Below are positions 3,364 through 32,759 of a stretch of DNA of 34,123 nt, one piece after another. Each line of letters starts with the position of its first letter. Position 1 is the first letter of the stretch. The stretch spans positions 3,652-37,774 of the forward strand of contig LT642191.1 of the NCBI GenBank assembly GCA_900128585.1. Direction: 5' to 3'. This stretch comes from Stramenopiles sp. TOSAG23-3. Taxonomy: Eukaryota > Sar. The position numbers and the translations under genes are program-made. The notes under the pieces are model-generated. The model ran no database searches, was not told the DNA's origin, and worked only from the letters and a program-made list of their open reading frames with translations.

Positions 3364-3866
3364 TGTGGTGTGTTGTATATTATTTACCACCACAAAAAAA
3401 AAAAAGTGGGTCAACAAGAAAGAAGAAGAAATTCAAGCAAAGAAAGAAAGAAAGAAAGAAATGATGGGCTTAATAAAAATAATATATAAATAGCATTGAA
3501 ATTAAAATAAGATTTTTAATAAAAAATAATTTTCACTTTTTAACAGGACTACAGTATTACAATATATTTTGAGCCATAAATATAATTTTTTATTTCAATG
3601 TTTCCTGCTAATAGACTAATAAAATAATAAGGCTCCATCATCATCTCATCGTCCCTCCGTTTTTGTTGTTGTCGTCCATCATCACACATCTTATTTATAA
3701 TTAGACCAACTATAACAAATAACTAAGAAATCAAAACAAAATGAAAAAAGAGAAAACATTCAATAATAGTTTGACTTTATTTACGTTAGGCAATAAAATC
3801 TTCACGCACAAGAGTAGAAAGAACATAAAATACACAGTAAAACAACGAAAGTATTCGATCGACCCG
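3364..3866. other. Divergent promoter spacer, PPT1 side
   Basis: AT-rich DNA between the microsatellite and the PPT1 start. It contains the (AAAG)n run at 3441-3460, A/T-rich blocks, and a pyrimidine-rich patch near 3631-3680. The frame into PPT1 is open from an ATG at 3741, but 3741-3866 would encode a Lys/Asn-rich stretch ahead of the signal peptide, so I read it as 5' leader. Confidence 0.5.
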
Positions 3867-10630: not shown

Positions 10631-13600
10631 ATGAACGGAAAACAGAGCCGGGACCTTTCCGAGCCTTCGAGCTCGTCTGCGGCGTCCAGCTATCGTGGGA
10701 TGTCCAGCAAGATTTCCGTTATCGAAGGCATTCGCCAGAAGGCTAAGCGCGAGGTTGAGTTCCAGCTCCACGCCTTTGAAACAAAAAGTCGATATCGGGG
10801 GCATGACGTGGAAACAGTGAAGCACGTAAGGCGCACGAAGGTCCACCGGATGTCCGCAGACGATGAGAAGGAACTTCGCAAGCAAGTTGCCCACGAACGG
10901 GCCCACCGCATGCACAAACAGCGCTTGCTGAATGGGATAAAGCGGCACCAGCAGCTTGCAGAAGAACGTTTTCCAGAATATAGCATGGATCAGTTCGTAG
11001 ATTCAGCTTCGTCGAAAAGATCCAGCGAGAAGAAAAAATTGCAGAATAGGGCTCTTGCAAAACTGCACAGGCAAGTGGACTTGGAGCACGCCATGAAGGT
11101 TTTGCCGCACTACAACGGCGACCTCTTTGGGACTCACAGGAGTTACCTGGCAGGGGTCATGTACATGTCTCGGATGACGGCTGCGAAAAAGCACAAATCG
11201 CGCAATCCCTGGGACAATGGGAACGAAAACGGTGGTTATGATACCGCCGAAGATAAAAAAGTAATAGAGTTTTTGGAAAACAAACAAAACGTAGCCAAAT
11301 CTTTGTGCAATTTGTCGTGGCACAAATCCAATAGCAGAAAATTAGTCCACGAAGGCGGACTGAAAGTGTTAGTAGAAATGTCAGATTTGGATGACTTCTC
11401 CATAAGGCTGTCTTGTGCCATTGCCCTCCATAATCTTTCCAGGGACCCAGACGTCCAAGCAGACTTGTTTGAAAACTATGTCGTGGAGACTATTGCCCGC
11501 CTTAGCCAGACAACAGGGGAATCCGCGCAGCTGCTGTTGGCACATTGCATCGGGGCATTGTGCGCCTTAAGTGCCGTGCAGGGCTACGAGGCTCAAATGG
11601 TGAGAGAAGGGGCCCTGAAAGCAATTGATGTTGCCCTGGAAAGCCCGCAGACGTTAGAAGTCCAAAAATTGTTAACCTCATGCTTGTTGAATTTGACAAC
11701 GTGCTTCGATGAGGCAACGTCCTACCCAGGCTGGGAGCGGGTGATAAATTCATGCCGGAGCGCCATTTCATCCTACCTTGTCGACACCCGAGCGAAGCAT
11801 CACGTTGCTAGCGCTTTGAGCAATTTGGCCTTGTACGAAAACCATAGGGCAAGAATGATATCGGAAGGAATGGTCAAGGACCTGACCGAGTTTTACGAGA
11901 TGTTTGATTCCAACAACTCAGTGTCCAGCGCGGTGTTCAGTGATGCGGAAGCAGCCATAGCTTCAACAATGAATTATCTGGCCTCATGCCACGGCGAGTT
12001 GAAGTCTGCCGTCGTGCGGCAAAACGGCGTGCAGCTGTTGGTGAGGATATCTCGTTCAAAGAATAATTTAACCCGCCAAAGGTGTATTATGGCCTTAAAT
12101 AGTTTAGCAATGGATACACACGGCGAGGGGCGCGCTGCGGGGCAGGTTATTGGACCGATTGTTCAGCTGTCCGACTCGAGAAACCCAACTACACGTTTCC
12201 GGTGCACGGCTGCGTTCAGGTCCATGTCTAGTCGACAAGGCAGTCGGAAACAAATGATGAAATCGAACGTTGTCTCCGTCTTGTTGCGGATGATTAACAC
12301 AGAAATTAACCTGAGCGAGGATGTGTGGAGTGCCAGCATATGCAACTGCACGATTACATTGTGCAACTTGCTGATTTCTGTTGACACAAGGGCGCGGGCT
12401 ATTGAAGGAAAGGCGTTTGACAGCGTTATCATGCTTTTGCAAAGGCAGCAGAAACTACAGGAGCAACAAATTTGTTGCGATGCCATTTTGACGCTGACCA
12501 ACACCGCGGAAGTAGCAGGGGAGATGCGAAAAGCAAGCACGCTTGGCGTAATTGTAAGGTTGTTAGCCAGCCCAGATCCAGGCATAATCAAGTCGGTTGT
12601 CCTTATTTTGAAAGCTCTTTGCAAAGACAAGAAAACTTGCACCACATTTTGCGCTCTGCGACCCGACTCCTTGCCGTACCTTGTCAACTTGTTAACAACA
12701 CCGGACGAAGAAATTGTTTTGAATGTTTTAATCGTAATTTCGATGGCCATCGGCACAACGAGCATGCGAAAGCGCATGGTCCAGGCTGGCGTGGAGAGCA
12801 TAGTGTACCTATGCGGGGGGGCGAACAAGGAGATCCAAATATGGTGCGCAGCGATTCTTTGCGCGCTTTCCTTCACCCCAGAGTGCCGTGTACCCATAAT
12901 ACAGGCTGGGGCTGCCAAAGGGTTGAGCATAGTTTCGGGAATCAAAGAAGACGTCAACCAACACCGCTGTTCCATAGCCATCTGTAACCTTTCGGCAGAA
13001 TTCGAATGCCGTTTGCGAATGATTGAGGATGGAGTGACCACTAGCTTGATATCGCTTTCAAGCGCGCACCACGAGAGCATCCGTTTTAATTGTTGCAAAG
13101 CACTTTGCAATTTATCTTGTACAGTTGGGAACGAGATGGACCTGGTGCAAGCTGGCACACTCCCAGAGCTCATGCTGACTGCTTTGGTCCGCTCGGAGTA
13201 CCCCATAACAAAACTCGTGTGCATCAAAACGATTGCTAACCTGATCGCCGATGATACCATCGACATTTTATTGGAGCAAGGCATTGCGTGGGCAATGATG
13301 GCTGCCACCACGGCATCGTTTGCAGAAACCGACGACGAGCCTTTAGAAGATGGACTTCAAATTGCGGGCAATGTTTATTGCGTGGTTGCAAAGTACGACG
13401 TAGGGATAGAAAAGTTAATAGACGAGCCAGGAGTTCTACGATCTCTCGCAGTATTGATGCAGTCGGAGAGCACCGATACCCGTGGGTACGCGTGGAAAGT
13501 TCTCAAGCTGGCGTGCCAGCACCCGTGCCAGTCCCGACTGATGCAAGAAAACTTCTTGCAGACGTTGAAGAATATGAACGTAACGTCTAGCTTGCACATT

Positions 13601-15790
13601 GCAAAAAATATTGCTGCGCTTCTCTCCTTTTTGTTCCGCGACAACAAAATACGGCGAAAGATTTCCATAGACGGGATCGGCGTAATGCAGAAAATATACT
13701 CCATGGACGACGACGACACGACGTTGCAATGCAGTGAAGCACTGACAAGATTGAGTTGCGATGACGTGACCACCAAGGCCGTCGTGGAAAACGATGTTTT
13801 AAAGATGTACTTGACTCTAGCACAGAGGAAGGCGGTGGAGACGAGATCGTTGGTCATCCAATCGTTGCTTCATTTGTCTTTCAATGAAAAATACATAGGA
13901 TCGCTTGCGAAGCAAAATGCCCTTGGTGTCGTCAAATCGTTGGTGCAGTTCGAAGACAGTGACCTGGAAAAGCACTCGTTCCTTTTGGGGATATTGCGCT
14001 CCTTTGTACTAGGCGACCAGAGAGCCCTGGTAAAGGGTTACGGGGTGATCGATGTATCCAATATTGAAGTGACAGAAGAAAACAGTTTGCACCACAATCT
14101 TGCGAGGAGCGGGATCATAAAAACGGCAAGCAAGATATGGTCGCGGTTGGACAAGACGAATTACGGCTATTATATTCCAAAGGTTATTCAGAGGGACATT
14201 GCCGTAGTGCTGTCCAAGACAATCTACCACGTAAGAAATCAGTATGCCTCGATGCTAAACGACGGCTTGCTACCCATATTGCTTTTTCTGACCCTTCATG
14301 GGGACGACTTTTCTAGTCGCCAGGCCGTCGTTGCACTCGCCAATTTATCCCACGATGGTTCGATCAGACAGAGACTGATAGACAACGAAGTAGTTGAAAC
14401 CTTGGTTGAACTTTTGAAAACCATCAAAACAGATAATGGAATTCAGCGTGACTGCGTCACTGCTTTTTGCAACCTCTCCTACTGCCTTGAACGTGGGAAG
14501 TTTTTGGTCGACTGCGGTGTTTACGACATGTCTGTGACCATGGGGAACCAATCGGACGAGTACATCCGGTCATGCTGTGGAAAAATTCTCACCAACCTGT
14601 CAGTGCACGCCGACAACACCCATGATGGTTCTGTCGCCGCGTTATTAGAGCTCTGCATGCCCGGAATGTCCACACCATCCAGAGACAAAAAGGCTGAGAT
14701 ACGAAGAAGCACTACTCAAGCGCATTTGGTAAAATCTCAGCGTACCTTGGAAGATTATTCTGAACCAGAAGGAACATGGGCCGATGCCCACGAATATTTT
14801 AGTAGCAATTGCAAGTTTAAGACCAAAGTTGAGGCCACTTTGGAAATTAATTTTGCGAACGATGGCTCCGAAGAAGAGGTAGACACATCATGGGTTAAAG
14901 AAGACGCAGGCTCCGCCAGTGGCCCACCACCATCTTACCCTCCAACGAAAGATGATGAGGAAAAAGTGGCGAATGAACTGCGATCTGAACTCGTAAGCCG
15001 CAAGCAAGTACTGGCCAGCTTAATAGAAGAAGATATAGGGAACAGCACGGACGAAGGGGCGAACTTAGATATCGTCAAGTTTGACAAAGTCCAACCAACC
15101 CTGAGCCAATTGTGGTACGACCCCATCACAGCATTTGAAAAAGTTGGCCGCACTTTTGAAGGGGATAACGACAACGAGGAAGACTTCGATTACGACAAAG
15201 AAAGCGATACTTTTGAGGAGGATGAGACGGAAAATGTGGACAAATCACTTGGAAACCAGAAAAAGGCAGCGTCTTCTGGCCACAGCACTCGCCCCACGAC
15301 ATCCGCCCACGACAGTCGGGACAGTTCCCGTAGGAGTGGGGGTTCCCGCCAGCGCTCTAACAATTCTTCCGATAAAGCACAAAAAAACGATGCTAGTGGG
15401 GGATTTAAAGAACAGGAAGATGGCGAAGTAGATTTTGAAGAAGCGATAGCTAGTGATTATGGATCGCGACAGTCCCGCAGAAGTGTCGAGGAGTTGATGA
15501 CTCTCAACAAAGAATCGGCACAAAAAAACAGAGGCGGGGTTTCGTTTGCATCGGAAGGCTCGGCCGTGTTGGAGGAAAGCGAGGCCACTGCAACCCCTGC
15601 AACACGAGGAGACCAGTCAAACGTGTCATTGCTTGAAGCCGAAGGCAGGCCAACCTCCACCCCAAGCTTGCATTTCGTGGATAATGCCCTCTCAGCGGGT
15701 CTTTGGAATGAGACACCAAAGATTAAATGGGATAAATCGGAAGAGGGTGGAAAGAAAAGAGGTGGACCAGCCCATCGACGGAAGAAGTGA
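10631..15790 (+). CDS. Giant armadillo-repeat protein
   Basis: A 1719-residue intronless protein. Residues 1-210 are basic and probably helical (many Lys/Arg/His; segments such as KREVEFQLHAFETKSRYRG). Residues about 210-1345 form a long alpha-solenoid of armadillo repeats. The recurring signature is a helix ending C.AL.NLS or CNLS (for example AKSLCNLSWHKSNSRKLVHEGGLKVLVEM, CAIALHNLS, CSIAICNLS, CCKALCNLS, AVVALANLSHDGSIRQRLIDNEVVETLVELLK). The last 375 residues are acidic, Ser-rich and low in hydrophobics, hence likely disordered, ending in a basic RRKK. Armadillo solenoids of this size act as protein-binding scaffolds. Cilium-associated ARMC3 and ARMC4 are the nearest kinds of relative I can name, but I cannot assign orthology. 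A 382-codon antisense frame at 12163-13311 is a shadow. Confidence 0.88.
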   Translation: MNGKQSRDLSEPSSSSAASSYRGMSSKISVIEGIRQKAKREVEFQLHAFETKSRYRGHDVETVKHVRRTKVHRMSADDEKELRKQVAHERAHRMHKQRLLNGIKRHQQLAEERFPEYSMDQFVDSASSKRSSEKKKLQNRALAKLHRQVDLEHAMKVLPHYNGDLFGTHRSYLAGVMYMSRMTAAKKHKSRNPWDNGNENGGYDTAEDKKVIEFLENKQNVAKSLCNLSWHKSNSRKLVHEGGLKVLVEMSDLDDFSIRLSCAIALHNLSRDPDVQADLFENYVVETIARLSQTTGESAQLLLAHCIGALCALSAVQGYEAQMVREGALKAIDVALESPQTLEVQKLLTSCLLNLTTCFDEATSYPGWERVINSCRSAISSYLVDTRAKHHVASALSNLALYENHRARMISEGMVKDLTEFYEMFDSNNSVSSAVFSDAEAAIASTMNYLASCHGELKSAVVRQNGVQLLVRISRSKNNLTRQRCIMALNSLAMDTHGEGRAAGQVIGPIVQLSDSRNPTTRFRCTAAFRSMSSRQGSRKQMMKSNVVSVLLRMINTEINLSEDVWSASICNCTITLCNLLISVDTRARAIEGKAFDSVIMLLQRQQKLQEQQICCDAILTLTNTAEVAGEMRKASTLGVIVRLLASPDPGIIKSVVLILKALCKDKKTCTTFCALRPDSLPYLVNLLTTPDEEIVLNVLIVISMAIGTTSMRKRMVQAGVESIVYLCGGANKEIQIWCAAILCALSFTPECRVPIIQAGAAKGLSIVSGIKEDVNQHRCSIAICNLSAEFECRLRMIEDGVTTSLISLSSAHHESIRFNCCKALCNLSCTVGNEMDLVQAGTLPELMLTALVRSEYPITKLVCIKTIANLIADDTIDILLEQGIAWAMMAATTASFAETDDEPLEDGLQIAGNVYCVVAKYDVGIEKLIDEPGVLRSLAVLMQSESTDTRGYAWKVLKLACQHPCQSRLMQENFLQTLKNMNVTSSLHIAKNIAALLSFLFRDNKIRRKISIDGIGVMQKIYSMDDDDTTLQCSEALTRLSCDDVTTKAVVENDVLKMYLTLAQRKAVETRSLVIQSLLHLSFNEKYIGSLAKQNALGVVKSLVQFEDSDLEKHSFLLGILRSFVLGDQRALVKGYGVIDVSNIEVTEENSLHHNLARSGIIKTASKIWSRLDKTNYGYYIPKVIQRDIAVVLSKTIYHVRNQYASMLNDGLLPILLFLTLHGDDFSSRQAVVALANLSHDGSIRQRLIDNEVVETLVELLKTIKTDNGIQRDCVTAFCNLSYCLERGKFLVDCGVYDMSVTMGNQSDEYIRSCCGKILTNLSVHADNTHDGSVAALLELCMPGMSTPSRDKKAEIRRSTTQAHLVKSQRTLEDYSEPEGTWADAHEYFSSNCKFKTKVEATLEINFANDGSEEEVDTSWVKEDAGSASGPPPSYPPTKDDEEKVANELRSELVSRKQVLASLIEEDIGNSTDEGANLDIVKFDKVQPTLSQLWYDPITAFEKVGRTFEGDNDNEEDFDYDKESDTFEEDETENVDKSLGNQKKAASSGHSTRPTTSAHDSRDSSRRSGGSRQRSNNSSDKAQKNDASGGFKEQEDGEVDFEEAIASDYGSRQSRRSVEELMTLNKESAQKNRGGVSFASEGSAVLEESEATATPATRGDQSNVSLLEAEGRPTSTPSLHFVDNALSAGLWNETPKIKWDKSEEGGKKRGGPAHRRKK

Positions 15791-25050: not shown

Positions 25051-27360
25051 TTATAAATTGCAATTTCCATGCATGGACGCTGACGCATTTGGCAAATACT
25101 CCCATTGATCCCCCCAAAAACCGGCTGCCACAACACCAGCGAGAGATGTTGCCCCCCCCCTCCCCGTTTTATACCCCTTCCCCGCAATAACAAAATCAGG
25201 TAGGCGATGTTGCCAGCTATTCGTTTGAAACATATTGGATCGAAGCAGCTCTACGGCTTTATCGAACCCGCTGAGGGTAGTCCCAGCAACAATTGCTGCG
25301 AGTCCAGGCACTCTGGGCCCAATGCTGACGATGGCAACTCCGGGCTCAGTGAAACTGCAATGTTTACCAATACCAAATCCACCTTCAATTTGACTTTGAA
25401 TGTCTTTCGAACGAATTGAGCGGAATGGAAAAAGAACAGATCTTGATACAGAATTGCTCTGTTTACCACCAAAAAGAATGACATTTTGAGCCAGGACTGT
25501 GTCCAGATGAACGAGTTTTTTGTCACTCACGACTGGGACAGATCCACCAACCACGGTAGCCCAGGAATTTGCAAACTTGATGGCCTCTTGTTTGTAGTGC
25601 CTTGTTACCTTGGCCACGCCCGTTGTGCCATAAACAATAGCAAACGGGGCGGCAAATACTCGTCGAACAGGGCCACTGTTTCTCTCAATATCGTCTGACC
25701 GCCTGCCTTCCTTGCGCAAGTCGTCGGTCCATTCCCTTCCAACTTGTTCCTTTCGAACATAGTCTCCATAATCTCTCTTCTTTGTTTTCAACAATTCAAA
25801 ACTTTGACCATCCAGTACAACTTTTTTGAACGAGCCCATATATTGGTTCAGATTGAGGATACGTAAACGTGCAACATTCACTGTTTGGATATTGATTGTG
25901 AGGAATTCTTTAGAATATGACATCTCAAAGCTGGACATTTGACCAGGGACCTGCTGCGCAAGGACTCGAACGCCCGCGCTGCTTCCACAAGAAACTGGAT
26001 TTGCACAGCTGAAGTAAACGGGTTGTTCGTACTTCCGATCCTTACTCTCCCCTTTGCGAAGGACCCTTTTCCAAAATTTGCGGAGCTGCCCATCGTCGAC
26101 AGCTCCCCCATCGTTGGTGTGCACAGTATCCCACCACCAATGTTCTTTACCCTCTAAAAATACGATCCGTTTTTCAACCCCAGCAATAGCCTTCCACAGC
26201 ACGCCCCTGGGCTTCTTGATCTTGTTTTCCGACCACGTCACCCCAGCGGAAGCAAAAAGGGTGCCCATGTGTTTCGTAGCTCGGGGGTCTATGACTCGGT
26301 CTTGAAGGCCCGTTCTGGCAAAAAATGGGAGGTTGAGTAAATTTTTCACCACCGCATCTCCACGATACTCAGTCACAGAGCTGTCGACGACCTTCCAGAT
26401 CTGTTCCATTTGACCGTGGACCTCTGCTGGCTTCTGCATTTCGGTAGTACCAAGGGTGGCCATCCCAGCCAACGTGGCCACACCCACCGCCATGTCCGGA
26501 TAATGGGCTCCAAAAAACCAGGCACCGAATCCACCGTTGCTGTGCCCCGTGAAAATTACTTTCCACGGCCGGTTTGCTACGGTCACACGGTCGAAAGTCC
26601 ACCTTGCAGCTAACTCTGACAGACTTCGGAGTGCCCTGAGAGCATGCCAGTGTCCGGGTCCTTGCCAGTTAGTAGCATGTGTTCCTCTTCCATGCGGGGC
26701 CAAAACCCACAAATCGGGCTTTGGCCTGTAGCAATCAGCCTGGCGCTGTGCCGTTACATCCATACCATGAGTAGATAATAAAACCGCGCATCCATCTTCA
26801 GGACAGCCGGTCCGATTGCCATACTTTGAAGATACTTTTGGAAATTTTGCTGCAGCAATCTGGGGGGAACCGTCGACGTCAAGGAAGACAAACGTAATTC
26901 GGTCGTGAATGGTGCGGCACAGGAGCTTGTAGTATTTTCCTGTGGCAGCAGTGTCTCCAATATTAACCTCCAGCCGAACCTTGAAAGGACACGCCTCCTG
27001 GGGTATAGCCGTCCCATTTACTTGCCGTAGCGGTGCGTGCAAACTTACCCGCTGTCCAGCTTTCACATCAATTGGCACCTCCGAAACAGTTGGCAAAATA
27101 AAGCGAGACCCTTTCACAGCAAGGCGTACGCCCTTGACGTTCCGCCTACCACGATTTACAACTCTCAAAAAAATAATTCCACCAAAAACTCGCCCTTCGA
27201 CAACGTCGGGAAGTTCATGACCAGTGTTCCAGTCATCGTAGGCAAGAAGTGGAAATATCTCGAGATTCTGCTTTCCCTTACGTTTCCTTCCTCCTGCAGT
27301 CAAAACACAGAGAGCCCAGCAGCAGAGAACAACAATGGACAGAAAACGCGTTGTTACCAT
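25051..27360 (-). CDS. Secreted alpha/beta hydrolase (prolyl-oligopeptidase/esterase-like)
   Basis: A 769-residue secreted protein. The signal peptide MVTTRFLSIVVLCCWALCVLTAG is followed by a beta-rich N-terminal domain (about 30-150), then an alpha/beta hydrolase domain. KVIFTGHSNGGFGAWFF holds the nucleophile Ser274. GLQDRVIDP (Asp354) and LEGKEHWWW (His407) complete a triad in canonical order. A C-terminal region of about 330 residues contains a GPVRRVFAAPFAIVYGT strand and an NVILFGGKQSN motif. It resembles the extra domain of large bacterial and fungal S9-like secreted hydrolases. Substrate cannot be assigned: peptidase, esterase or feruloyl-esterase-like activities are all possible. The ATG at 27360 begins the signal peptide directly; an in-frame GTG upstream is not needed. 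It is divergent from the fusion gene. Confidence 0.82.
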   Translation of the reverse strand: MVTTRFLSIVVLCCWALCVLTAGGRKRKGKQNLEIFPLLAYDDWNTGHELPDVVEGRVFGGIIFLRVVNRGRRNVKGVRLAVKGSRFILPTVSEVPIDVKAGQRVSLHAPLRQVNGTAIPQEACPFKVRLEVNIGDTAATGKYYKLLCRTIHDRITFVFLDVDGSPQIAAAKFPKVSSKYGNRTGCPEDGCAVLLSTHGMDVTAQRQADCYRPKPDLWVLAPHGRGTHATNWQGPGHWHALRALRSLSELAARWTFDRVTVANRPWKVIFTGHSNGGFGAWFFGAHYPDMAVGVATLAGMATLGTTEMQKPAEVHGQMEQIWKVVDSSVTEYRGDAVVKNLLNLPFFARTGLQDRVIDPRATKHMGTLFASAGVTWSENKIKKPRGVLWKAIAGVEKRIVFLEGKEHWWWDTVHTNDGGAVDDGQLRKFWKRVLRKGESKDRKYEQPVYFSCANPVSCGSSAGVRVLAQQVPGQMSSFEMSYSKEFLTINIQTVNVARLRILNLNQYMGSFKKVVLDGQSFELLKTKKRDYGDYVRKEQVGREWTDDLRKEGRRSDDIERNSGPVRRVFAAPFAIVYGTTGVAKVTRHYKQEAIKFANSWATVVGGSVPVVSDKKLVHLDTVLAQNVILFGGKQSNSVSRSVLFPFRSIRSKDIQSQIEGGFGIGKHCSFTEPGVAIVSIGPRVPGLAAIVAGTTLSGFDKAVELLRSNMFQTNSWQHRLPDFVIAGKGYKTGRGGATSLAGVVAAGFWGDQWEYLPNASASMHGNCNL

Positions 27361-27534
27361 GAACAACCGCACCCAAACCACGATACAGAAAATAATGTAT
27401 AATGCAAAAAAGTTTCCTGTTAAAATCAGCGATCATATCTTCCATTTATTGTTGACTCTATATAGTCTTTTCAAATACTAGATGACCATGTGAAAAGAAT
27501 GTAATTTAAAACCATGGCGACACAGATCAATTAT

Positions 27535-28094: not shown

Positions 28095-31000
28095 ATGGTG
28101 CAGAAGAACAAACAGCGTTCGAAGTCGAAACGGGTGCTCAAAAAGACTGTGCTTTCTGGGGAATCAGTTACAGGGCAACCGTCAGGGGCGAAGCCAGGAT
28201 GGATATTCAAAACAAATAAAATTGCGCTTCTTTACGATTGTCTCCTATTCACAGCATTCTCTTTTTGCTTCATATTCGGCATGTCACTGTACACACTAAT
28301 ACTTGGGTTGACGCTGACCACAGTGAAGTGGGCATTGTCGCCCCCGGATCGAAAAATTAAGAAGGAATTTTACGACACACCAAGGCGTTTTCTATTAACT
28401 GGTTCGGCCAGTGGCATGTCTCAACACTTAACTAAAACGCTTTTATCGCGCGGACATTATGTATGCGCGACAGACATAATGTATACCCAGCTTCTTCAAC
28501 AGTACCCCGGAGAAAACAGACCAACGAATTTATTACTACAGAAGTTAGACGTTACGAATTCAGACAACTGGGACGAGGTAGTTGGTTCGTGTGTTGAGGT
28601 GTGGGGAGGGCTTGATGTTGTCTTCAACATAGCTGGTGTATTATGCCCGCACAAAATCCAAGACGCAACGCTTAAAGAAATTAATTTGCAACTCGATGTA
28701 AACATCAAAGGCGTAGTTTTGGGGACACGCGCGGCGGCCAGGTGCTTTCTTTCTCATCCCCCTGCCTCACCCTCATCACCACGGGGGCACATTGTAAACT
28801 TTTCGTCCATGGGGGGGTTGGCTACAGTGTCAGGGGTCACGTTGTACGCCGCCAGTAAGTTTGCAGTTCGTGGCTTTAGCTCCGCGTCTTCGAAAGACCT
28901 GGCGAACGCTAACATTGCGGTGTCGTGTTTCATGCCCGATGCCGTCCAAACCCCAATGGTCGATTTGCAATTGAACTTCGACGAAGCGTCAATGGCGTTT
29001 TCAGGCGAGATATTGTCATTAGAAGAAGTGGAAGATTGTATAATGAATACCGTATTGATCGAACGGCCAGTGGAGCAATGGCTTTCGTCCCGGGCGAATG
29101 TTGCAAGGTTCGGAGATATTTTTGGTGCCTCGCGTGCCGTAGCTCTTGCCGAATGGTCCATGCGTAGCACTGGCGTCCAACGCCAAAATGCTTTGATGGA
29201 AGAAAAGCACAGCACGAACCAAAGGTCTTTTGGGGCATCGCACCTCCCGGACTTGAGAACTGTCAAGAGAAACGTTTGCGTAAAGTACATCCTACGCGCC
29301 TTCTACTTTCTTTGCTTCCTAGAAATTTATTCAAGATTTCTGGTCAATGTTCGTCTAGAAACAGCGGAGGACATTGCACTCAAAAATGTTAAGAATATTG
29401 TTGGGAAGCGGTTTGTAGTGACTGGTGGGTCAGCAGGAATTGGGCTTGAAACTGCCCGAGTGCTGACCAAATATGGTGGAATGGTTACCATTGCCAGTCG
29501 GTCCCAATACAGGGGGGAGCTGGCAGCCTCTTCTATAAACGGACAGGCCGATAGTGTAAGTGGTGGGCAAGCAACGTTTGAACAGCTTGACTTGTCATCG
29601 TTTGATTCCGTTAACAAATTCGTAGATCGTCAATTGCACGCGCAGCAAAAAACGGACGTTTGGATTTTAAACGCTGGGCGTATATCTCCAAACTTTGAAC
29701 GGACAAGCGACGGTGTAGAGTCGACCTTGCAGGTGAACTTTCTATCTCACCAGCTGCTGATGGATCGTATTTTACGGAAAGAAGGGAAGAACAACAATAC
29801 AGAGAAAGGACCAACGGTGGTCTCGTTATCTAGCTGGGGGCCTGCACGTTACTCTAAACTTGGAAACCTTGTTAATGGGGGTCTTCACCATGTACTGAAG
29901 AGGGACGAGTATCCATTTATCTTGCCCGGGGTCTATGGCATTTCCAAACAGGCCACGGTCCGCTTTGCACGGGAGATATTTAAGCGTTTTGGTGCGCGTT
30001 CGTTCAGCGTTCACCCGGGGCTAGTCTCAACAAAATTGGGAACAACGCGCGGTAATAAACTGGAAGAATACGGAGCTGCATTATGGTGGTACATGGCATC
30101 AAAATTTACAAAAGTAAAATCAGTTCAAGAGGGCGCTGCAACGACAGTCCTGTGCGCCACCGACCGAGCAATTGACGGCAGGGGATTGTTCTACAGCGAC
30201 AACGCGCTCGCAGAATACCCAAAAGACGAAGACAACGACATTTCAAAAATTCACGACCGAGCAAACAGAGATGCAAATGCCTACGATGAAGGCTTAAGAA
30301 TTATCAACGATGCGTTGGCTGGAAAGTACCGGAAGACTGGTACCGGCGCGGACAATACAATTAGCACCGTAGGTGTTTGGTTTAATGTAGACAGTTCTGG
30401 CACAGCCACAACAACCCTGGTTTCCGTAGTGTTGCACGTTATAGTGCATCGTATACTCTTTCTCATTGCCGAGTATCTAGTGCAATCGAAGCTTGGTGAA
30501 AATCAAAAGATATCATCAAAAAATATCCGGCCAGTCATGATAAGTTTGGAACAGCGCCGCTCGACGTATTCTGCGATTATCGACGGAATGTACTGCTCAT
30601 TCCTGTTGAAGTACGGACTAATTGGGAGCGGTTCGTACCTTCTTGGTGGTTTCATTGTCCTGTTTTGGACGGACTTTCATTTTTATGTGACGCACCGTTT
30701 AATGCACATGTCGACGTTTCTGTACAAGAATGTTCATTACATTCATCACCAAAGTCACAACCCAAATGTTTGGAGCTCATTAAGTTTTCACCCAGTAGAA
30801 GCATTTATTTTCTTTTCAGCTTACTTAATTGTTTTAATCGTTCCAATGCCAACAGTGGTTTGGTGGGCCTTCAAGTTTGGGATGGTAATTGGACCGCTCC
30901 ATGCACACATTGGCTACGATTTGGGAGCAATTGTGAAAGGCCCAGCCCATCACTATTTGCATCATGCATTCAAAGATGGCAATTATGGTGGATTTCCAAC

Positions 31001-32759
31001 GGGAATCTGGGATAAGTTGTTCAACACTGAATTGGACAGCAATGGGCACAAAAAGGTGTCCAGCCCCGAGAGTAAATATTCACCGTCTTCCTTTCGAAAA
31101 TGTCTTTTCTTTTTTCTCCTCTCCCAATTTGTATTCGATTACAATATTCCGCTGTGGACCATAGGGGCCGGATCGGTTTTGGTTTGGATTGCGTTGCTCG
31201 ATGGCATGCTTGTTATTTTTCCAGGGGCATTTGAGCGCAAGTGGGACCAAAAAAAGGTTTTCGTTGTTGGTCTAAGTCGTACAGGGACAACATCCATCAC
31301 AGAAGCACTTAACATGCTCGGCATCCGCACTCACCACTTTTGCGGTCCATTGGTGAAACTTGCCTCTGGGCATGGGGGTAGCCATAAAATTGTGGAAGCC
31401 TACGTTGACAATTTGGACGGCCACACAGATATCTCACCGACAATCGTTGCGGAGGAACTTGCTGAAAAATACCCCGAGGCACGCTTTATATACACAACAC
31501 GACCACGCGACGAATGGGCCCATGCGCTCGTGCGTTTTGTCAGTGAAGAGCCGAGAAAAACATTGTTCAAAAACCACCCAACGCCTTTCAATTTTTACAA
31601 TGCGGCGTACGGTGAGGGATGGTCTTCCTACGATGCAGTAGAATGGCAGCACATTCATGATGCCCACGAAAAGCGCATGCAGAATTTAAGAAAGCAAGTA
31701 GGCACCAAACGCTTTTTGAAGATTGATATCACTGCCCTTGGCAAGAAAGGCAAAGACACAACGCTATGGAATATACTGGGGGATTTTCTTGACGTGGATG
31801 TTTCAAATGCCCCTAAGAAATTTCCCCATCGTTATGTGTTTCAGTATTCGGCGATTGATCAACCAAAGCGACAAATTAATTATTTGTTGCAACGCATAGT
31901 GTCAAAAACCTGGGTCCTGTTATTTCTGTTTGCATTGGTGTACGGTGGTCGATTCTTTGATTCGGGTCAATGTACAAGAGCATGCCGTGTCTGGAACGGA
32001 GAATCAAAGATGAAGCACGGAAAACCCATACCAATACTTGCGGGGACGTCCGGAAATTGGTTCGAACCCCCCGATGTTTCCGGGGTTCGTATTGGTTGGC
32101 AGACGTGCCAATGTTTCTCAAGCGAAAGTACAAGAATCTTGAAGGGAAGACGAATCCCCCGGCTTCACTCACCAATTGAAACAAAAGATCAATGGTGGTT
32201 TCGCCCAGAGACAACGGCGGTGTGCAGCGACGAAGGCAAGGAATACGACCATGCGAAAGATGTCCCAACTGGAGACACCACCGTTTCCAATTGCGGTCGT
32301 TGTGGAAAGTGCAATGTTCACGATGCAGATGCGATGCACATCCGCAAAAGCACGTTGACTAAGCGCGCTTCTGTTGGTGCAATACTGTACTTGTTTTTTG
32401 GTCAAGCTGCGCATCGAATCTTTTTTCGATCGGGAATTGTAGGATTTAGTCAAACCTGTGCGGAGTGTTGGCTGGAGGCAACAAGGTGCAACCTTGCAAG
32501 CTGCGCTCAGTACTGCTTGTTTGGCTGGGAGAATCCTCTGTCGGTACAAAGTACAACAGATGGCACGAAACTGAATGCTTGCATGCATTGTGATGAGATC
32601 TATTGCAGTGCTTATTACTTGCAGTCATGCGGTACAAATCGAAGGGCCGCCGGTGTTGTCACAGATATCCTGCGCCCAGAAAAAGATGTTTGCGAGGCTG
32701 CTCTCAGAGGGTATGATGCGAGGGCAAGGAGGCAAGGAGGAGGCAAGAGTTCGCCGTAG
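28095..32759 (+). CDS. Five-part fusion: SDR - SDR - membrane hydroxylase - sulfotransferase - Cys-rich domain
   Basis: A 1554-residue intronless membrane protein. In order: basic start and transmembrane segment (44-82). SDR 1 (97-310): TGSASGMS at 102-109, FNIAG, SS...YAASK at 251-255. Membrane segment (397-416). SDR 2 (438-735), retinol-dehydrogenase/WWOX-like: TGGSAGIG at 443-450, LNAG, YGISK at 614-618. Fatty-acid/sterol hydroxylase domain (about 770-980) with histidine boxes HRLMH 867-871, HYIHH 881-885, HAH 936-938 and HHYLHH 952-957. Membrane hairpin (1001-1043). Sulfotransferase (1054-1250): VGLSRTGTTSI P-loop at 1058-1068 and FIYTTRPRDEW for PAPS. Membrane segment (1269-1287). Cys-rich domain (1290-1535) with NCGRCGKC and many spaced cysteines. 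Expected chemistry is NAD(P)H-dependent oxidoreduction, di-iron hydroxylation and sulfate transfer, probably on an ER lipid or sterol; the substrate is inferred only. The ATG at 28095 is the first in the frame. Confidence 0.9.
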   Translation: MVQKNKQRSKSKRVLKKTVLSGESVTGQPSGAKPGWIFKTNKIALLYDCLLFTAFSFCFIFGMSLYTLILGLTLTTVKWALSPPDRKIKKEFYDTPRRFLLTGSASGMSQHLTKTLLSRGHYVCATDIMYTQLLQQYPGENRPTNLLLQKLDVTNSDNWDEVVGSCVEVWGGLDVVFNIAGVLCPHKIQDATLKEINLQLDVNIKGVVLGTRAAARCFLSHPPASPSSPRGHIVNFSSMGGLATVSGVTLYAASKFAVRGFSSASSKDLANANIAVSCFMPDAVQTPMVDLQLNFDEASMAFSGEILSLEEVEDCIMNTVLIERPVEQWLSSRANVARFGDIFGASRAVALAEWSMRSTGVQRQNALMEEKHSTNQRSFGASHLPDLRTVKRNVCVKYILRAFYFLCFLEIYSRFLVNVRLETAEDIALKNVKNIVGKRFVVTGGSAGIGLETARVLTKYGGMVTIASRSQYRGELAASSINGQADSVSGGQATFEQLDLSSFDSVNKFVDRQLHAQQKTDVWILNAGRISPNFERTSDGVESTLQVNFLSHQLLMDRILRKEGKNNNTEKGPTVVSLSSWGPARYSKLGNLVNGGLHHVLKRDEYPFILPGVYGISKQATVRFAREIFKRFGARSFSVHPGLVSTKLGTTRGNKLEEYGAALWWYMASKFTKVKSVQEGAATTVLCATDRAIDGRGLFYSDNALAEYPKDEDNDISKIHDRANRDANAYDEGLRIINDALAGKYRKTGTGADNTISTVGVWFNVDSSGTATTTLVSVVLHVIVHRILFLIAEYLVQSKLGENQKISSKNIRPVMISLEQRRSTYSAIIDGMYCSFLLKYGLIGSGSYLLGGFIVLFWTDFHFYVTHRLMHMSTFLYKNVHYIHHQSHNPNVWSSLSFHPVEAFIFFSAYLIVLIVPMPTVVWWAFKFGMVIGPLHAHIGYDLGAIVKGPAHHYLHHAFKDGNYGGFPTGIWDKLFNTELDSNGHKKVSSPESKYSPSSFRKCLFFFLLSQFVFDYNIPLWTIGAGSVLVWIALLDGMLVIFPGAFERKWDQKKVFVVGLSRTGTTSITEALNMLGIRTHHFCGPLVKLASGHGGSHKIVEAYVDNLDGHTDISPTIVAEELAEKYPEARFIYTTRPRDEWAHALVRFVSEEPRKTLFKNHPTPFNFYNAAYGEGWSSYDAVEWQHIHDAHEKRMQNLRKQVGTKRFLKIDITALGKKGKDTTLWNILGDFLDVDVSNAPKKFPHRYVFQYSAIDQPKRQINYLLQRIVSKTWVLLFLFALVYGGRFFDSGQCTRACRVWNGESKMKHGKPIPILAGTSGNWFEPPDVSGVRIGWQTCQCFSSESTRILKGRRIPRLHSPIETKDQWWFRPETTAVCSDEGKEYDHAKDVPTGDTTVSNCGRCGKCNVHDADAMHIRKSTLTKRASVGAILYLFFGQAAHRIFFRSGIVGFSQTCAECWLEATRCNLASCAQYCLFGWENPLSVQSTTDGTKLNACMHCDEIYCSAYYLQSCGTNRRAAGVVTDILRPEKDVCEAALRGYDARARRQGGGKSSP

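Follow-up and report, generated by a model that had tools for sequence, protein, structure and literature searches.

Does a single protist gene join several lipid-modifying enzymes into one chain, and what might such a chain make? This question is raised by a locus of Stramenopiles sp. TOSAG23-3 (GenBank assembly GCA_900128585.1, contig LT642191.1), of which we analyzed a stretch of 34,123 nucleotides, positions 3,652 to 37,774 of the forward strand ("the window"; coordinates below count from its first letter). The forward-strand frame from ATG 28095 to TAG 32759 runs through 1554 codons without an internal stop and encodes two short-chain dehydrogenase/reductase (SDR) modules, SDR1 and SDR2, followed by an FA_hydroxylase module (PF04116), a Sulfotransfer_4 module (PF17784), and a cysteine-rich tail. 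Divergent relatives share this order, and we lean towards seeing in it an enzyme that would tailor one membrane lipid in several steps.

One open frame with five modules

The frame covers 28095..32759 (1554 amino acids). A mechanical open reading frame (ORF) call starts upstream at TTG 28014, but in the alignment relative P0003 begins at the residue encoded by ATG 28095. A Pfam profile search of the whole protein (matches listed up to E 1, curated cut-offs applied) placed three families above their cut-offs, namely adh_short (178.5 bits over two stretches, the best being residues 100-289), FA_hydroxylase (82.9 bits versus a cut-off of 31, residues 854-978), and Sulfotransfer_4 (81.3 bits versus 22.8, residues 1054-1246). 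A preliminary description, made from the sequence alone, had proposed one continuous frame with these families (the sulfotransferase without its subtype), four catalytic modules recognizable by their motifs, and a Cys-rich end, all of which held up. The motifs start at residues 251 (YAASK), 614 (YGISK), 867 (HRLMH), 881 (HYIHH), 952 (HHYLHH), and 1059 (GLSRTGTTSI), and the catalytic residues that we inspected are kept in every relative that reaches them.

The fusion is shared by divergent relatives

Our protein searches need exact shared words and score a limited candidate set, so that all counts of relatives are lower bounds. With an E-value limit of 0.001, the first search found at least 12 proteins (7988 candidates scored), a search with residues 240-1009 of relative P0006 at least 14 (7991 scored; 6 new, P0023-P0028), and a search with the tail at least 9 (644 scored). 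Besides a nearly identical protein (P0002), both P0003 (78% identity) and P0004 (46%) are full length with all five modules in the same order. P0005 (EukProt g192.t1, 45%) shows this order too, starting inside SDR1 without about the first 107 residues; the architecture that the preliminary description had proposed to seek in other protists is thus present elsewhere. Five relatives are shorter (P0006, P0007, P0008, P0010, and P0011), P0009 comprises SDR2, hydroxylase, sulfotransferase, and tail, and the long proteins P0012 and P0013 have SDR sequence only and lack the other modules. The linker between SDR1 and SDR2 can be aligned in P0003, P0004, P0005, and P0007.

That neighboring genes were merged by an artefact of assembly or gene modeling would agree with the many public relatives that are partial or differ in their module sets. 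Yet the DNA holds one open frame and divergent proteins of other clusters show the identical module order, which leaves this explanation extremely improbable. Because relatives at 78%, 46%, and 45% identity keep the order, a chance join in this assembly, named beforehand as a possible refutation, is excluded: The fusion, known from DNA and predicted proteins, is not a local assembly join. The gene has one exon here, as described earlier, but this label may not extend to the whole family, since in-frame insertions within conserved stretches of P0005 and P0007 look by eye like unremoved introns.

Among 16 proteins compared, this one included, 6 have SDR1, 4 begin before SDR2 without SDR1, and 6 are too partial. 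In an unrooted FastTree phylogeny, P0010, which lacks SDR1, groups with P0008, which has it (support 0.95), and gain and loss of SDR1 are therefore not ordered. Residues 1366-1599 of P0009, after its tail, form a tyrosine phosphatase domain that may be a real fusion or a gene-model join.

A scan of prokaryote genomes was patterned on the hydroxylase alone and would miss fusions without it; it matched 114 stretches, of which 100 were confirmed and 80 loci kept. By phmmer (E 0.001), 75 of these loci have hydroxylase frames alone, 4 add an SDR1-like frame, and 1 adds an SDR2-like frame, while none of the 80 has a sulfotransferase or tail. These bacterial members of PF04116 also carry three histidine boxes and are 31-40% identical to the module studied here, but none of their hydroxylase frames examined is fused to a second module. 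A viral scan matched 16 stretches, none of them a relative. Three alphaproteobacterial loci (L079, L094, and L097) have two hydroxylase frames on opposite strands with an SDR1-like frame adjoining.

The SDR and hydroxylase modules

SDR1 (28377..29099, forward strand like all features of the protein; residues 95-335), found by its adh_short match, carries N203, S237, Y251, and K255, and this N-S-Y-K set is present in 6 of 6 proteins with the module. Its glycine motif reads TGSASGMS, with Ser replacing the last Gly, in P0001, P0003, P0004, and P0007, and TGCASGMG in P0008, while P0005 begins too late. Because its motif here departs from TGxxxGxG, we rejected SDR1 as a strict classical SDR and place it in the SDR superfamily only. 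SDR2 (29346..30329; residues 418-745) has both TGxxxGxG and the N-S-Y-K set (N548, S580, Y614, and K618) of a classical SDR, and was located at residues 433-723 by NCBIfam PRK06196, below that model's cut-off, as PRK06197 was below its own. A protochlorophyllide reductase was rejected for SDR2 (TIGR01289, 49.2 bits versus a cut-off of 331.35). Protochlorophyllide reductases and Rv2002 are among very many structural matches of the SDR fold; such matches are too common, and we therefore name no substrate from them. In SDRs, an Asp-type residue goes with NAD(H) and an Arg-type residue with NADP(H), so that Asp127 suggests NAD(H) for SDR1 and Arg469 suggests NADP(H) for SDR2.

The hydroxylase module (30408..31064; residues 772-990) has the three histidine boxes of its family at 30678..30707 (residues 862-871), 30735..30749 (881-885), and 30948..30965 (952-957). 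In its own assembly (12,883,446 bases in 660 contigs, of unknown completeness, where six-frame searches can miss intron-split genes) FA_hydroxylase has five matches, the fusion included, the nearest other one on contig C321 with 42% identity over residues 840-984. The module's single sequence found one PDB match that we judged to be chance (E 0.32), no hydroxylase fold is among the 50 Foldseek matches listed for the predicted model, and we assign the module to no subfamily.

These modules could amount to a single-chain analog of the sterol C4-demethylation complex. The hydroxylase would then be the C4-methyl oxidase, SDR1 would take the role of 3beta-hydroxysteroid dehydrogenase/decarboxylase and SDR2 that of 3-ketoreductase, with the sulfotransferase added for the 3-hydroxyl. 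The cofactor-type residues, Asp127 in SDR1 and Arg469 in SDR2, speak for this. In the known complex, a sterol methyl oxidase is joined by a 3beta-hydroxysteroid dehydrogenase/decarboxylase and by a ketoreductase, and ERG28 tethers them in the endoplasmic reticulum (ER) (PMC6385002). In the part of that source used here, ERG25, ERG26, ERG27, and ERG28 are separate proteins and no sulfotransferase is among the components named, whereas the fusion is one chain with a sulfotransferase (PMC6385002). Pfam 3Beta_HSD finds no match in our protein up to E 1, SDR1 has no ERG26-type match, and the oxidosqualene cyclase domain is unmatched in the assembly. The surroundings of the histidine boxes, which we take to be closer to ERG3 than to ERG25 in their motifs, count against C4-demethylation as well, and we consider it unlikely.

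A sphingolipid enzyme would have SDR1 as 3-ketosphinganine reductase and the hydroxylase as a C4 hydroxylase like SUR2, a member of the FA_hydroxylase family, followed by sulfation of a long-chain base or ceramide. SDR1 does match NF049977 (3-ketodihydrosphingosine reductase) at E 5.1e-24, but this match is thirteenth in the list with 85.1 bits versus a cut-off of 400, and four predicted relatives have no SDR1, making this assignment quite improbable.

The sulfotransferase module and the cysteine-rich tail

The Sulfotransfer_4 module (31227..31877; residues 1045-1261) is marked by its profile match, a P-loop (residues 1059-1068), Asp1112, and Arg1136, and is backed by a PDB profile comparison and by a sulfotransferase-like fold in the predicted model; the structural comparison covers this part of the protein only. 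P-loop, aspartate position, and predicted fold are common to the Sulfotransfer_4-type enzymes SgdX2, Cpz8, and a schistosome SULT. Solved chains of this type are 195-260 residues long, whereas the module studied here is preceded by a membrane hydroxylase and followed by a Cys-rich tail, and it is the single Sulfotransfer_4 match in its genome.

The tail (31968..32756; residues 1292-1554) has 18 Cys in 263 residues, and from residue 1292 neither Pfam (to E 1) nor NCBIfam (at 1e-5) lists a match. Among the selected relatives long enough to cover them (9 or 10), sixteen of the 18 Cys positions are invariant, and the other two are Cys in 8/9 and 7/9, a pattern that fits a disulfide-rich domain. 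Elsewhere in the same genome, on contig C86 (L015:802-1512, forward strand), a stand-alone ORF of 236 amino acids has part of the tail's Cys motif with several Cys missing, and its start resembles a secretion signal by eye.

Membrane topology and a proposed sequence of reactions

Hydropathy peaks lie at residues 43-61, 162-184 (taken as the SDR1 core), 394-417, 774-792, 841-859, 904-922, 1028-1046, and 1264-1285. The first belongs to an N-terminal hydrophobic stretch (28212..28337; residues 40-81) that may be a membrane anchor and is modeled as a helix (42-81) in a region mostly below a predicted local distance difference test (pLDDT) score of 50; the last marks a hydrophobic segment between sulfotransferase and tail (31893..31949; residues 1267-1285). 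Histidine boxes of the FA_hydroxylase family face the cytosol. If a modeled two-helix hairpin (residues 999-1015 and 1020-1037) is right, the sulfotransferase would lie on the side of the histidine boxes and segment 1267-1285 would put the tail opposite.

On balance, we favor a membrane-anchored multifunctional enzyme for the sequential tailoring of one membrane lipid, probably with cytosol-facing catalytic modules and a tail beyond the membrane. The domains, conserved residues, conserved fusion, and a sulfotransferase-like fold in the predicted model were observed, and around them we infer topology, step order, and location, which is probably the ER. The di-iron hydroxylase module would oxidize a carbon of a membrane-embedded lipid such as a sterol, another isoprenoid, or a long-chain lipid. 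SDR2, of the NADP type and accompanied in some relatives by the NAD-type SDR1, would interconvert ketone and alcohol, so that the two together could place a hydroxyl or invert it. The sulfotransferase would act last and transfer sulfonate from 3'-phosphoadenosine 5'-phosphosulfate (PAPS) to a hydroxyl, with Asp1112 as base. Past the last hydrophobic segment, the tail would be held by disulfides in the lumen or outside. Since the unusual arrangement is kept in relatives, the enzyme probably makes a hydroxylated, sulfated lipid. Domains, relatives, residues, and predicted fold lend support to the membrane-bound tailoring enzyme suggested in the preliminary description.

Several observations weigh against this proposal. 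A PDB search with the hydroxylase profile yielded no chain within an E limit of 10. The two predicted models are of middling confidence (mean pLDDT 67.9 and 65.8) and below 50 around the third histidine box. Plain hydropathy gives a single peak between that box and the sulfotransferase, and placing both on the same side therefore needs the modeled hairpin. SDR1 has Ser at the last Gly of its motif in all but P0008, and P0009, P0010, P0011, and P0026 are predicted without SDR1, though P0010, from a contig of 3.7 kb, could be truncated. Conservation is poor in the stretch linking SDR2 to the hydroxylase, with 6/40 identical positions in P0004 and 9/40 in P0005.

Host genome and neighborhood

The preliminary description had linked the gene to diatom sterol sulfates and to the chlorosulfolipids of Ochromonas, a link that found no support. 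The light-harvesting domain Chloroa_b-bind has no match in the 12.9-Mb assembly (control matches in 1/14 genomes), nor do the oxidosqualene cyclase domains SQHop_cyclase_C and SQHop_cyclase_N (control matches in 2/14 and 1/14); these absences weigh little because of the unknown completeness and the intron-split genes that can be missed. ERG4_ERG24 has one match below cut-off, Erg28 is unmatched in the assembly and in controls alike and hence uninformative, and an APS (adenosine 5'-phosphosulfate) kinase domain was found. For an algal chlorosulfolipid, shared chemistry is the sole point in favor. PAPS-dependent sulfonation of a lipid hydroxyl, the chemistry proposed here, is also what the fusion would have in common with the Skeletonema marinoi sulfotransferases. 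In the part of the source used, the four S. marinoi sulfotransferases discussed for sterol sulfates carry Sulfotransfer-1 and no fusion is mentioned (PMC5670183), whereas our module is Sulfotransfer_4 within a fusion. We found no paper on chlorosulfolipids and a sulfotransferase in the open-licence literature, and the algal framing of the locus is weak.

A SHIPPO-repeat gene inside the window hints at a flagellate, and the host picture might fit a heterotroph that acts on dietary lipids. By Pfam, the genes beside the fusion form no lipid-modifying pathway, save for a palmitoyl thioesterase 23 kb away, and Rfam gave no matches on the window at gathering scores. Adjoining the fusion gene on the reverse strand (25054-27381) is a frame of 776 amino acids without a Pfam match at 0.001, and an uninterrupted forward-strand frame of 1719 amino acids (10631-15787) has armadillo-type repeats that are ARMC5-like by Pfam.

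A candidate family of one-chain lipid-tailoring enzymes

Narrow searches of the open-licence literature found no description of such a fusion, which apparently is an unreported, conserved combination of known catalytic families with a tail that has no Pfam name. A bolder proposal, which we hold to be possible but rather doubtful, is an undescribed protist family of membrane-spanning, one-chain enzymes that would oxidize, hydroxylate, and sulfonate one lipid at the cytosolic face of the membrane; the 18-Cys lumenal domain, with a partial relative that may be secreted, would bind or export the sulfated product. If the enzyme makes one sulfated lipid, the gene points to a product class that lipidomics could look for, and eukaryotes would then offer an example of a tailoring sequence residing on one membrane protein.
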